64,000 nt of DNA from contig JACNKX010000068.1 in assembly GCA_014381825.1 (NCBI GenBank), forward strand, positions 1 to 64,000, given 5' to 3'. Made by a program: the position numbers and the translations under genes. Of the stretch, positions 33,137 to 60,109 are shown piece after piece. The notes beneath the pieces are model-generated. The model did not search any database. It was not told the DNA's origin and was given only the letters and a program-made list of their open reading frames with translations. This stretch comes from Planctomycetota bacterium. GTDB taxonomy: Bacteria; Planctomycetota; Planctomycetia; Pirellulales; Pirellulaceae. Within the stretch, counting starts at the first letter, position 1; every line of letters starts with the position of its first letter.

Positions 33137-35152
33137 ATGAATCTTTTCGCTACGGCCATCGCCTCGCTCCTGCTTGCTCGCCTTGGCTACGAATACGTGC
33201 CGTGGTGGGGCAATATGCTGCTCGCTCTGTGGATCTGGAGCTTTGGTGCAAACGTCGGCAGCTTTATGAACGTTGTGATCTTTCGCGTTCCAGCCGGGAT
33301 GAGTGTTGTCTATCCCGGGTCGAAGTGTCCGAAGTGTTTGAATCACATCGGATGGTACGACAACGTTCCCGTACTCAGTTGGTTGTGGCTGAGAGCCAAA
33401 TGCCGCTACTGCGCGCTGCCGATCTCTTCGCGATACCCAACGATTGAAGCCGTTGTCGCGGCCGCGTTCTTAGTCCTAGCGTTTATGCAGCCCGTTACGG
33501 GCGGCGTGAACTTGCCCTACGTTCGCGAGCATTTTCGAAGCGGACTCGAGCTTCCGCTCTGGTTAATGTACGGCTACCACGTGCTACTGCTCTGCGTCCT
33601 AATCTGCGCGGCGATGATCCGCTACGACCGACAACGAACGCCAAGACGCCTTTATGTACCAGCGTTATTCATTGGCGTCGTCGCACCGTCGGTCTGGGCC
33701 ATGCTGTCGCCGCTGCAAGCGAAATTCCAATTCGGCTGGATCCCGCTACGACCGGTGGCGTTTCATTCCATCGCTCACTTGGGCAGGCAAGACGGATTCG
33801 CGCTACTGCCGTGGCAAGTAAGTCTTCTCAACAGTTTGATCGGGCTCGTCGTTGGGCTATCACTGGGGCTACTCATTTCCCACCTGGGCAATTCAAAGCG
33901 ACGACGTTTGATCTCCGCCGAGGTCCCGGTCACGGCTCTCGCCGGGTTGTTCCTCGGTTGGCAAGCGGTCTGCGCCCTGGTCGCTGCCGCGGCTGTCCTT
34001 GATTTCGTTTTCGTCGCCGTGGCCCGCGTAGGCTCACGTGGATCGCGCATTCCCTGGACTGGTCACCTCGCGGCGGCGAGCTTTCTATATTTGTTAACTT
34101 GGGGTGGGCTAGTTACACATTGCACCTGGATTGGTACGAACGCCGACATCAGGACTTTCGGAGTCGCCGCCGCGATTAGCATCGTCTTTGGCACGCTGTC
34201 AGCTCGTCTTGCCACGCCCAATGAATTTGTCAAATCGAATTACTTCGCGAACGATCAGAAGTCATCTCCGAACACCAACAGGAGTGAATACGCCATGCCA
34301 AGGCCCATCGAAGGCAACACCCACGCGATCTTGAACTCGCCGAGCTATCGACTCGCGGAAGAGGACACAGAGTTTCTCAAGCAAGACGCGTTACGCCCCG
34401 TGCGCCTCCAGCTGGAATTACTCAAGCCCGAAATGACGCTTGCCGAGCATGGAGTTCATTCGACGATCATTGCGTTCGGCGGAACGCAAATTGTCGAGCG
34501 ACAAGAAGCCGAAGAGCGACTTGCCAAGGCGCAACAGTTAATTGCCATCGCACCCGATGATCCTGCCGCCAAACGAACGGTCGACCGCGCGGAACGTGTA
34601 CTCGCCAAGTCGAAATACTACGACGCGGCGCGTGAGTTCAGCCGACTCGTTTCGTCTAGCTGCCAGAGCGACGGCAATTGTGACTACGTAATCACCACCG
34701 GCGGCGGTCCGGGTGTGATGGAAGCGGCAAACCGTGGTGCTTACGACGTCGGCGCGAAATCCGTTGGCTTGAACATCACGCTCCCGCACGAACAAGCTCC
34801 CAATCCGTACATCACGCCCGATCTATGCTTCCAGTTTCATTACTTTGCGTTGCGGAAAATGCACTTTCTGTTTCGAGCCAAGGCGCTCGTTGTATTCCCT
34901 GGTGGCTTTGGGACCATGGATGAGTTGTTCGACGCGCTGACGCTGCGGCAAACACATCGCATGCAAGCGATCCCAATCATTTTGTTCGGCGAGGATTACT
35001 GGACTCGCGTAATCGATTTCCAGTTTCTCGCTGACGAGGGAGTGATTGCCGACGAGCATCTCGATCTGGTTGACTTTGCCGAGACACCGGAAGAGGCCTG
35101 GAAGATCATCACCAAGTTCCACGGACAGGGCGTTCCCGATGAGCAAGCTTGA
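33137..35152 (+). CDS. Prepilin peptidase-like membrane domain in one frame with a LOG-family hydrolase
   Basis: One open frame of 671 codons joins two unrelated parts. Residues 1-365 resemble A24 prepilin peptidase: GSFMNVVIFRVP (41-52), two Cys pairs (Cys64/67, Cys89/92) in the N-methylase loop, then several membrane segments. The first catalytic region reads AAMIRYDRQRTPRRLYVPAL, but the second, normally GGGDVK, is ISAEVPVTALAGLFLG with Glu for Asp, so peptidase activity is doubtful. Residues about 387-671 are a LOG-family (TIGR00730-like) domain with TTGGGPGVMEAANRGA and FPGGFGTMDELFDALTLRQ, which hydrolyses nucleoside monophosphates to base and ribose phosphate. An ATG at 34295 with AGGAG 10 bases upstream could start the LOG part alone, so this may be two genes lacking an intervening stop. 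Confidence 0.75.
   Translation: MNLFATAIASLLLARLGYEYVPWWGNMLLALWIWSFGANVGSFMNVVIFRVPAGMSVVYPGSKCPKCLNHIGWYDNVPVLSWLWLRAKCRYCALPISSRYPTIEAVVAAAFLVLAFMQPVTGGVNLPYVREHFRSGLELPLWLMYGYHVLLLCVLICAAMIRYDRQRTPRRLYVPALFIGVVAPSVWAMLSPLQAKFQFGWIPLRPVAFHSIAHLGRQDGFALLPWQVSLLNSLIGLVVGLSLGLLISHLGNSKRRRLISAEVPVTALAGLFLGWQAVCALVAAAAVLDFVFVAVARVGSRGSRIPWTGHLAAASFLYLLTWGGLVTHCTWIGTNADIRTFGVAAAISIVFGTLSARLATPNEFVKSNYFANDQKSSPNTNRSEYAMPRPIEGNTHAILNSPSYRLAEEDTEFLKQDALRPVRLQLELLKPEMTLAEHGVHSTIIAFGGTQIVERQEAEERLAKAQQLIAIAPDDPAAKRTVDRAERVLAKSKYYDAAREFSRLVSSSCQSDGNCDYVITTGGGPGVMEAANRGAYDVGAKSVGLNITLPHEQAPNPYITPDLCFQFHYFALRKMHFLFRAKALVVFPGGFGTMDELFDALTLRQTHRMQAIPIILFGEDYWTRVIDFQFLADEGVIADEHLDLVDFAETPEEAWKIITKFHGQGVPDEQA
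34280..34284 (+). promoter_or_regulatory. Internal ribosome binding site before the LOG domain
   Basis: AGGAG lies 10 bases before the in-frame ATG at 34295 (MPRPIEGNTHAIL), where homology to stand-alone LOG proteins starts. It supports separate translation of the hydrolase even though the upstream frame runs straight through. Confidence 0.55.
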
Positions 35153-57568: not shown

Positions 57569-57833
57569 TAGTACATTTCTAGGTTACTGAGCCTCGAGGA
57601 CTTCTGACAAGGCGGCAAGAGCGTTTCAGCGCGGCATGGCTAAAGTCGCAGGAACGCAGTTTTGTGGGGCGTCTGAAGTCTTGCGACTTCAGCTACGGCT
57701 TTTTCCGGATCAGACTCGTTACTCTACAAACTTACCTGGAAGACCGATTCGATCAATCGGTGTATGATGGCAAACTGATCAGTTTCTTCTAAGAACGAGT
57801 TCGAATTAACAAATAACGGAACGATCGGCTTGT

Positions 57834-57838
57834 GGAGG
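57834..57838 (+). promoter_or_regulatory. Ribosome binding site deciding the TTG start of the DsbA-family gene
   Basis: GGAGG with five bases to the TTG at 57844. It fixes a start upstream of the in-frame TGA and shows that translation is meant to begin before it; a GTG at 57832 overlaps this site and has none of its own. Confidence 0.7.
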
Positions 57839-57843
57839 TCGAC

Positions 57844-58458
57844 TTGCCAATTCTCGAACTATTTTCGGACTACATTTGACCGTGGTGCTACCTCTGCACC
57901 GGGCGTGTGGAACGACTGCGAAGAGCATTCGAGATCGAAGTGGTTTACAGGCACTTCCCTTTGCACCCCGAAACTCCTTCAGCAGGCATGACCCTTGAGG
58001 AGTTGTTCGCGGGTCGTGGCATCGATATTGACGCCGCCAATGCTCGCATGGTCGCCTTGATGGAACAAGAAGGCTTGCCGTACGGCGACCGGACTATGAC
58101 GTACAACAGCCGCATGGCTCAAGAAGTTGCCGTATGGGCGATCACGCGGCCGAACGGGGCGGCGATCCACGACATGCTGTTCCGCGCGTATTTCGTTAGC
58201 GACGTAAATCTGGCCGAAGTCGACAACTTGCTTGCCATCGTAGAACGTATGGGGCTTTCCGGTGAGCAAGCGAAAGAGGCTCTTCAGCTGCGACAGTTTC
58301 GAGAAGCAGTTGATGCGGATTGGCAACGATCGCGTGACCTAGGAATTACGAGCGTCCCGACCTTTGTGATCGGAAAGAACGGACTTGTTGGGGCGCAACC
58401 TTACGAGCAGCTGGATCGATTTCTCACAGAATCCGGAATCGCGCGGCGAGAAACTTGA
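57844..58458 (+). CDS. DsbA/FrnE-family oxidoreductase with TGA at the first active-site Cys: probable selenoprotein
   Basis: From TTG 57844 the frame reads LPILELFSDYI, TGA (57877-57879), PWCYLCTGRVERL and continues to 58458, 204 residues if TGA is read. In DsbA/FrnE/HCCA-isomerase proteins this place holds FSD-x2-CPWCY, so the TGA stands precisely at the first catalytic Cys; reading it as selenocysteine gives U-P-W-C. The rest is intact: FEIEVVYRHFPLHPETPSAG, LFRAYFVSDVNLAE, the cis-Pro loop ITSVPTFVIGKNGLVGAQPY. A GGAGG site precedes the start and a SECIS-like hairpin follows the TGA. It would exchange disulfides in the cytoplasm. Without Sec insertion only an 11-residue peptide, or an enzyme restarted at GTG 57907 lacking the motif, would be made. 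Confidence 0.82.
57893..57911 (+). promoter_or_regulatory. SECIS-like hairpin after the DsbA-family TGA
   Basis: TCTGCAC (57893-57899) pairs with GTGTGGA (57905-57911) over 7 bp (two G-U) leaving the loop CGGGC. The loop begins 21 nt after the TGA and has G at its second position, within the bacterial SECIS rules I recall (loop 16-37 nt from UGA, G among the first two loop bases). It sits in coding sequence with geometry equal to the hairpin at 724-741. A competing 5-bp stem (57884-57888 with 57896-57900) exists. Confidence 0.5.
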
Positions 58459-58543
58459 GTGAACGTTTCGTTGTTACCGGTTGCGTCATCAGGTATCGTC
58501 AGCTTCTCGCTCACGTTTAAAACGAACGCCTTGAGAGGCAAGC

Positions 58544-60109
58544 ATGAAATCCAAGCTTCGAATCGCGCTGATCACGGTGGCCTTACTGAGCCTCGGCATT
58601 CCTACGGCAAGAAGTTACGCAGATGCTAAGCTCCCAAACATCGTCTATATTCTCGCGGACGATCTTGGGTACGGTGATGTTAGTTGCTACAACTCGAAAT
58701 CAAAGATCGTGACGCCGCATGTCGATCGGTTGGCGTCGGAAGGAATGCGGTTCGCAGACGCACACACGCCGTCCGCCGTTTGTACACCCACGCGTTACGG
58801 CATCCTAACAGGTCGATATTGCTGGCGGACGCGGCTGAAGTACCGCGTGTTGGACGGATTTGATCCGCCGCTGATCGAAGAGGGGCGATTGACCGTCCCC
58901 AGCTTGTTGAAGCTAGCCGGCTATGCAACCGCCTGTGTTGGCAAGTGGCATCTAGGCATGCAGTGGACGGACAAAGAAGGCCGACAAGTCCCTGCCGTGC
59001 CCATCGACCGCAAGACTCGTCCACGTGTCGGCAACAATGTCGACTACGCGCGACCGGTCACTGGCGGGCCGACGGATCGAGGCTTCGATTGGTACTTCGG
59101 CATCTCGGCATCGCTCAACATGTCCCCTTTCTGCTACTTGGAGAATGATCGTCCAGTGCGTCTGCCAGTACTCAAACAAGCACGGACCCAAACCGAGTTC
59201 ATCAGCGTCGACGAGGGCGTACGATCGCCGGATTTCACGATCTACGGAGTGATGCCACGACTGGCTGGCGAAGCAGTAGGTTACATCGAGCGGCATGCGG
59301 AGAAGAACGCCGACCAACCGTTCTTCCTCTACGCTCCACTCACGGCTCCGCATCTTCCGGTTGTTCCCAACGAGGAGTATCGCGGCACCAGTACCGCCGG
59401 GCAATACGGTGACTTTGTCGTGGAGACCGATGCGTTCGTGGGCGCGGTGTTGGAGACTCTCGATCGCACCGGCCTTACAGACAACACGCTTGTCATCTTC
59501 ACGTCCGACAACGGTGGACTTTATCACTATTGGGACGCGAAGGAATCAGATGATGTCAAGCATTACAAACCGAGCGCGCGGGGTCGTTTTGTGCGCGAGT
59601 TTGGGCATCAAGGCAATGCTCATCTCCGCGGCACGAAGGCAGATATTTGGGAAGGCGGTCACCGCGTTCCGTTTGTTGTACGTTGGCCCGGCAAAACACC
59701 GAGCGGCGCGGTCAGCGACGAGATGATCGAGCTAACTGATCTATTGGCAACTTGTGCCGCAATTGTCGATGTGGAGTTGCCTGAAGGCATGGGCGGGGAC
59801 AGCCGCAATGCTTTGCCGGCATTATTGACACCCAAGCCCGCCGACCCAGTTCGTAACTTTGCGGTTCACCATTCGCTGTGGGGCACGTTTGCTATTCGGA
59901 AGGGGCCGTGGAAGATGATTCCGCATCGAGGTTCTGGCGGGTTCACCTTTCCAAGGGAAATCGATGTAGGAAAAGTCGGCGGCCCACCTGGGCAACTCTA
60001 CAATCTTGCGAACGACCCGTCGGAAACACAGAATGTCTGGGATGAGAATCCGGGCGTCGCGGCAAGCCTCGCGCGGTTACTTGCCGATGTGCAAGCGAAA
60101 GATCAATAA
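58544..60109 (+). CDS. Secreted sulfatase
   Basis: This 521-residue sulfatase has a signal peptide (MKSKLRIALITVALLSLGIP, then TARSYAD). Seen are NIVYILADDLGYGDVSCYNS for metal, AVCTPTRYGILTGRY with the Cys for formylglycine (CTPTR), VGKWHLGMQW, PLTAPHLPVVPNEEY and IFTSDNGGLYHYW. It resembles arylsulfatase A/GalNAc-6-sulfatase-type planctomycete enzymes; substrate unknown. It starts 86 bases after the DsbA-family gene and may follow it on one transcript. Confidence 0.93.
   Translation: MKSKLRIALITVALLSLGIPTARSYADAKLPNIVYILADDLGYGDVSCYNSKSKIVTPHVDRLASEGMRFADAHTPSAVCTPTRYGILTGRYCWRTRLKYRVLDGFDPPLIEEGRLTVPSLLKLAGYATACVGKWHLGMQWTDKEGRQVPAVPIDRKTRPRVGNNVDYARPVTGGPTDRGFDWYFGISASLNMSPFCYLENDRPVRLPVLKQARTQTEFISVDEGVRSPDFTIYGVMPRLAGEAVGYIERHAEKNADQPFFLYAPLTAPHLPVVPNEEYRGTSTAGQYGDFVVETDAFVGAVLETLDRTGLTDNTLVIFTSDNGGLYHYWDAKESDDVKHYKPSARGRFVREFGHQGNAHLRGTKADIWEGGHRVPFVVRWPGKTPSGAVSDEMIELTDLLATCAAIVDVELPEGMGGDSRNALPALLTPKPADPVRNFAVHHSLWGTFAIRKGPWKMIPHRGSGGFTFPREIDVGKVGGPPGQLYNLANDPSETQNVWDENPGVAASLARLLADVQAKDQ

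Follow-up and report, generated by a model that had tools for sequence, protein, structure and literature searches.

Does an in-frame TGA at the catalytic position of a redox enzyme gene terminate the protein, or does it encode selenocysteine (Sec)? The question is raised by a gene of the DsbA/FrnE family in a 64,000-nucleotide stretch of a Planctomycetota bacterium of the Pirellulaceae (assembly GCA_014381825.1, contig JACNKX010000068.1, positions 1 to 64,000; referred to here as the window). The gene looks cut short but very probably is functional and encodes a selenium-containing redox enzyme that belongs to a known family. With high confidence, we read its product as a DsbA-family selenoprotein of the FrnE branch, a probable cytosolic oxidoreductase whose UGA at 57877 would be decoded as Sec by means of a hairpin located downstream.

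An apparently interrupted gene of the DsbA/FrnE family

The frame that extends from the TTG at 57844 to the TGA at 58456-58458 contains a single internal in-frame TGA (Table 1). Its read-through product starts with LPILELFSDYI-U-PWCYLC, where U occupies the first position of a CPWC-type active site, and Cys15 and Cys18 are the only cysteines of the protein. From the internal TGA onward, and including it, 193 codons are open, and the ratio of non-synonymous to synonymous substitution rates (dN/dS) against four relatives, one of which yielded no dS, indicates purifying selection downstream of the UGA. Both the residues preceding the UGA and the PWC following it are conserved among relatives, most of which have their start codon 10-13 codons upstream of the TGA. 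A mechanical list of open reading frames (ORFs), by contrast, holds only the GTG-initiated frame 57907-58458 of 183 codons. The preliminary description of the locus had placed the TGA at the first Cys of CPWC in FSDYI-TGA-PWCY, behind a GGAGG site and ahead of an intact enzyme that standard annotation would shorten to 57907; in these respects it agrees with the frame, the Pfam match given below and the ORF list.

Table 1. Positions of the selenoprotein gene and its elements within the window
Feature	Position	Strand	Remarks
Shine-Dalgarno-like GGAGG	57834-57838	+	read directly; 5 nt from its end to TTG 57844
Putative selenoprotein gene, DsbA/FrnE family, 204 residues plus stop	57844-58458	+	TTG start; alternative GTG 57832
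TGA, predicted selenocysteine, residue 12, first UPWC position	57877-57879	+	frame, conservation in relatives
TGC, resolving cysteine, residue 15 of UPWC	57886-57888	+	read directly; column invariant
Candidate bacterial SECIS (selenocysteine insertion sequence) hairpin	arms 57893-57899 and 57905-57911; loop CGGGC 57900-57904	+	coordinates from alignment A3
GTG, expected start for a standard gene caller	57907-57909	+	within 3' arm of hairpin, downstream of active site
Proline 172 of VPTF	58357-58359	+	P172 invariant in alignment
TGA, true stop	58456-58458	+	open frames of relatives finish nearby with TGA, TAA or TAG

Against the Pfam family DSBA (PF01323; cut-off 25.6), residues 4-194 of the read-through protein score 109.5 bits, whereas no NCBIfam model, as scanned, was passed by the protein. 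Its nearest solved proteins by sequence are Deinococcus radiodurans FrnE and Streptomyces coelicolor SCO1869, whose CPWC aligns with UPWC; it shares with FrnE, which we take to belong to COG2761, the sequence similarity and the predicted fold, and with the DsbA-like selenoproteins the UxxC motif. The VPTF proline presumably belongs to the cis-proline loop that characterizes thioredoxin folds.

The protein probably works in the cytosol, as a disulfide reductase or isomerase resembling FrnE; since only 11 residues precede the Sec, there is no room for an export signal. Function could be envisaged in the following manner: SelB loaded with Sec-tRNA(Sec) would decode the UGA at 57877 as Sec, directed by the hairpin just 3' of it, yielding a Sec-Pro-Trp-Cys active site. 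Sec12 would then attack a disulfide of the substrate, Cys15 would resolve the mixed selenenylsulfide, and the enzyme would be recycled by a cellular reductant, either the thioredoxin system or glutathione. Sec insertion itself, as well as cytosolic location, catalytic direction, reductant and substrate, are inferred.

Among the alternatives, the one that fares best retains Sec and changes the chemistry: the protein might act differently from FrnE, e.g. like a glutathione-dependent GST-kappa (a glutathione S-transferase, GST) or HCCA isomerase, which belong to the same fold superfamily. We consider this unlikely. At the related SAR116 loci (L136, L137 and L138) and similar ones, which carry Cys forms of the gene, neighbours were judged by eye to be GST-like (at seven loci, one of them a Sec locus), flavodoxin-like (seven) and glutathione-reductase-like (six). 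These neighbours hint at a glutathione-linked role.

The internal UGA among relatives and the machinery to read it

A first set of 147 genomes, including the one under study, was searched for relatives, and 25 of them gave matches with E values of 0.001 or lower. At least 49% identity was found at 17 places. All 16 of these that cover the site carry TGA; they are distributed over 15 genomes, 14 besides that of the window, and at the remaining place (L037) the contig stops short of the site. At lower identity, eight Cys forms (27-34%) and one further TGA form were found. The latter, L042 (G009, L042:1501-2064; 28% identity), is a distant FrnE-like gene from a family relative, with the active site UPFC and a GCGGA/TCCGC hairpin of its own with a GTT loop, as read directly in the sequence, and perhaps represents a second Sec-FrnE branch. 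One genome (G018) contains two TGA-form copies, L029 and L048, which are 65% and 49% identical to the window gene. In a sample of the phylum, 11 of 392 genomes matched at E 1e-25 or better, three of them, including the genome of the window, with TGA.

A second scan, with one genome per species, provided the 80 loci used here and below, which are the best of at least 501 relatives; many of them share genomes with the first set, and the two sets are therefore not independent. The active-site codon is TGA in 44 loci, TGC in 20 and TGT in 15, and in one locus (L101) the contig ends before the site. Because one of the two peptide patterns employed specifies Cys at this position, 44 of 80 is not to be read as a frequency. 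As for the column itself, which the preliminary description had proposed to inspect in homologues, all 79 readable loci show either TGA or a Cys codon. According to their titles, 25 of the 44 TGA forms are from Planctomycetota and one (L065) bears only the name 'bacterium'; in the remaining 18, the title gives Rhodospirillales, Granulosicoccaceae, a Chromatiales bacterium, Filomicrobium, Proteobacteria, Acidobacteria, Gemmatimonadetes or Deltaproteobacteria, although individual titles may be wrong since nearly all records are metagenome bins. Of the alignments, A2 lacked L032 and L037, and A4 comprised the window gene and 35 of the 80 loci.

The genome itself (9.69 Mb in 238 contigs, 99.93% complete) contains all four components that the preliminary description had suggested looking for. 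On contig 59, selB (352 bits, cut-off 242) adjoins selA (565 bits, cut-off 268); a tRNA-Sec with anticodon TCA scores 67 bits (gathering score 47); and two selD-like genes lie above the cut-off, the better of which (345 bits) has its own in-frame TGA in SCAG-U-AGK. The second selD (284 bits; G000:C45:42491-43399, L013) lies in an open frame of 741 residues and matches without a TGA; this longer form is possibly a fusion.

Across genomes, the TGA form goes along with selA. In the first set, selA is above cut-off in all 15 genomes, including that of the window, whose close TGA form extends over the site, versus 84 of all 147 (hypergeometric 1.3e-4, relatedness ignored), and among the eight Cys-form genomes in two (G021 and G070), with G022 just under. 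Outside the Planctomycetota, selA was found in 16 of 17 TGA-form versus three of 23 Cys-form genomes (Fisher 3e-7); this sample covers 40 of the 80 loci, comprising 17 of the 18 TGA forms (L089, a near-copy of L086, was omitted) and 23 of the 35 Cys forms.

These distributions bear on the readings in which the UGA does not encode Sec. The most tenable of them takes the UGA as a real stop and the product as a truncated protein that starts at GTG 57907 and has no active site. A suitable ORF of 183 codons exists, but a start inside a hairpin arm requires no UGA tied to selA, nor does truncation fit conserved residues before the UGA and a conserved PWC after it, and we regard it as highly improbable. 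Still less credible is a pseudogene or artefact, i.e. an ordinary CPWC gene altered by a nonsense mutation or by an error of sequencing: TGC and TGT are only one base away from TGA, but the preliminary description had already considered a random nonsense mutation improbable, and either origin is made untenable by the recurrence of the TGA in relatives, of which 14 further genomes carry it. Moreover, the TGA is present in 44 loci of the second scan, 193 codons are open and under purifying selection, and the paired hairpin occurs in TGA forms only. General reassignment of UGA to another amino acid (e.g. Trp, as in code 4) would explain an in-frame UGA but can practically be dismissed, because TGA also serves as the terminal stop of the gene and of the open frames in several relatives, and the internal UGA occupies a Cys rather than a Trp column and tracks selA.

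The hairpin downstream of the UGA

Decoding of this UGA as Sec would depend on a SECIS hairpin within the coding region. A candidate begins 13 nt past the TGA, with a gap of 20 nt between TGA and loop. In the ungapped alignment A3 (16 TGA rows, 15 of them distinct), the stem joins columns 18-23 to columns 29-34 and encloses a loop of 5 nt. Pairing is seen in 93.3% of the cells versus 79.7% in shuffles, and sliding by 1-3 columns reduces pairing to 12-61%. Cells changed on both sides number 16 compared to a shuffled mean of 4.5. None of 500 shuffles reaches the observed pairing, the number of doubly changed cells or the covariation score. RNAalifold, run unguided, recovered five of the six pairs; a seventh, between columns 17 and 35, consists of T-A in 40 of 43 rows and of T-G in one. 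When identical 54-mers are counted once, at least five of the six pairs form in 42 of 45 TGA rows (mean 5.76; L042, whose hairpin register differs, is included) versus none of 40 Cys rows (mean 2.65). For loop positions and pair probabilities one row containing N was left out; the second loop position is G in all 43 rows, followed by U (35) or G (8). The geometry agrees with the bacterial SECIS (bSECIS) model as set out in a figure legend of a 2026 review (PMC13188914), which asks for a loop of 3-9 nt, a stem of 4-16 bp, a G in the first two loop positions, a distance of 16-37 nt from the UGA and an energy of -7.5 kcal/mol or lower: the loop has 5 nt, the stem 7 bp, the G is at position 2 and the distance is 20 nt.

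Several observations speak against Sec decoding via this hairpin or against the enzymatic role. Of the preliminary SECIS claim, the hairpin 13 nt past the TGA stood, with compensatory changes and confined to TGA forms; the stretch named there for a SECIS prediction, 57877-57920, adopts a different minimum-energy structure without the hairpin when folded alone (z -0.29). Likewise, in the 54-nt stretch a competing fold (-15.3 kcal/mol) is favoured over the hairpin-forced one (-12.2 kcal/mol), and with -6.9 kcal/mol for the 27-nt hairpin region alone, agreement with the model limit of -7.5 is not clear-cut for the window's own sequence. The mean probability of the four core pairs exceeds 0.5 in only 26 of 44 unmasked Sec rows, just four of six pairs form in L035 and L036, and two counts stay within the range of the shuffles, namely pairs in which both sides have changed (2) and further pair types (6). 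Beyond the hairpin, the TGA form L032 has an additional TAA near its end, L077 and L108 have one further stop inside the matched stretch, and selA was not found in the TGA-form genome G540 (L104), which may be incomplete. Finally, the enzymatic role is based on a homologue with 30% identity and a C-terminal CXXXXC that the window protein does not possess.

Because the energy of the single sequence favours another fold, the case for the hairpin rests on covariation. The competing fold engages nucleotides adjoining the UGA, which would be covered by a ribosome positioned there. With the first 13 nt masked, the mean pair probability exceeds 0.5 in 34 of 44 Sec rows; in unmasked Cys rows it does so in none of 40.

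The stem also leaves its mark on the protein. In the codon counts (44 TGA rows, with L042 set aside, and 40 Cys rows), residue 18 of the TGA rows is Ser in 30 (AGT in 30/30), Cys in 13 and Val in one, and it is Gly in 37 of the 40 Cys rows. The codon for Arg21 is CGT in 43/44 TGA rows versus 1/40 Cys rows, and column 31 is A in 29 of the 30 Ser18 rows versus three of the 14 others (Fisher 5e-7, relatedness ignored). Residues 18 and 22 may well co-vary (Ser18-Ile22, Cys18-Val22, and Ser18 or Cys18 with Thr22) because their codons form the two arms of the SECIS stem. The residues here follow the stem, so that for the third Cys in UxxCxxC of the window protein the hairpin would be as good an explanation as catalysis. 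We lean towards the view that the hairpin dictates residue pairs of the active-site helix and that, with repeated Sec/Cys switching, residue 18 is Ser or Cys in Sec forms but Gly in almost every Cys form, in which it would be free of the hairpin.

Exchange of Sec and Cys, and the place among known selenoproteins

Trees with the site masked need six Sec/Cys changes (86 rows) or four (80 rows; at least three forced by starred branches). A single Sec/Cys split was rejected, as a tree constrained to one clade of Sec rows is worse by 42 log units (p-AU 0.005). Repeated exchange of Sec and Cys is thus supported. A Cys clade of 30 rows (Rhodospirillales, SAR116 and other alphaproteobacteria) is nested among proteobacterial Sec rows (support of the enclosing forks 87-91), which suggests the direction from Sec to Cys; Gly18, common to this clade and to distant Cys forms, would fit Cys as the older state. 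The 44 Sec and 35 Cys loci of the second scan, 40 of whose genomes were searched for selA, constitute a natural experiment on Sec/Cys exchange and on the way in which an RNA element in a coding region limits the active-site helix of an enzyme.

As judged by sequence, the gene belongs to the already catalogued DsbA-like UxxC family, of which it is a new member. Following the available parts of the sources, nine 'DsbA-like protein' selenoproteins (COG2761, UXXC, predicted SECIS) were reported from the Sargasso Sea in 2005 (PMC1088965), the family was kept in a table of 2006 (PMC1794560), it comprised 45 selenoproteins in 41 organisms in 2016 (PMC5029168), and it appears as 'DsbA-like protein', PF01323, UxxC, in lists of 2022 (PMC9312934) and 2026 (PMC13188914). 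The window gene shares PF01323, UxxC and a candidate SECIS after the UGA with it, and no defining difference emerges; planctomycetes are not named for the family in the available parts of PMC1088965 and PMC13188914, the latter of which calls it 'DsbA-like protein form 1'. In 2016, Sec machinery and selenoproteins were reported for planctomycetes, as far as the accessible text goes (PMC4807772); a literature search of partial coverage found no report of such a selenoprotein of FrnE type in planctomycetes. D. radiodurans FrnE (DR_0659; PDB 5cnw, 5co3, 5coh, 5cp1, 5e59, 5xwh) has Cys where the window protein has Sec and, like many but not all FrnE, a C-terminal CXXXXC that is absent here. A FrnE with Sec in green algae (Mamiellophyceae/M. 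viride), judging by its partly available description (PMC6627142), shares family and Sec but is algal. The Rcas_1661 family thioredoxin-like (seleno)lipoprotein NF041057 (DsbG-like) is also a UxxC thioredoxin-like selenoprotein; with 38.3 bits versus a cut-off of 190, the window protein is not a member.

For annotation, the consequence is that the version of gene callers, starting at 57907 after the active site, loses both Sec and Cys, so that the enzyme vanishes. Since the protein passes no NCBIfam model, the same loss may occur in other genomes.

The gene neighbourhood provides no operon argument, because the neighbours in the window are a HAD-family hydrolase on the opposite strand and a sulfatase. 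No cluster of neighbours is common to more than 12 of the 80 loci, and any one cluster keeps a constant position and orientation in at most four Sec loci. A PADLOC scan returned nothing, and an Rfam search of 57600-58700 with E up to 10 gave one match, on the opposite strand and far below the gathering score. Scanning the window for UxxC or CxxU frames yielded eight places, including the selenoprotein gene; of the others, the place at 33445, which is followed by the longest open stretch, was rejected, as neither of its sides matches a Pfam family and ORFs in other frames overlap it. In four Sec loci each, a gene that by eye is aldo/keto-reductase-like lies directly 3' on the same strand (L083 +1 gene), and an alpha/beta-hydrolase-like gene lies 5' on the same strand (L062 -1 gene).
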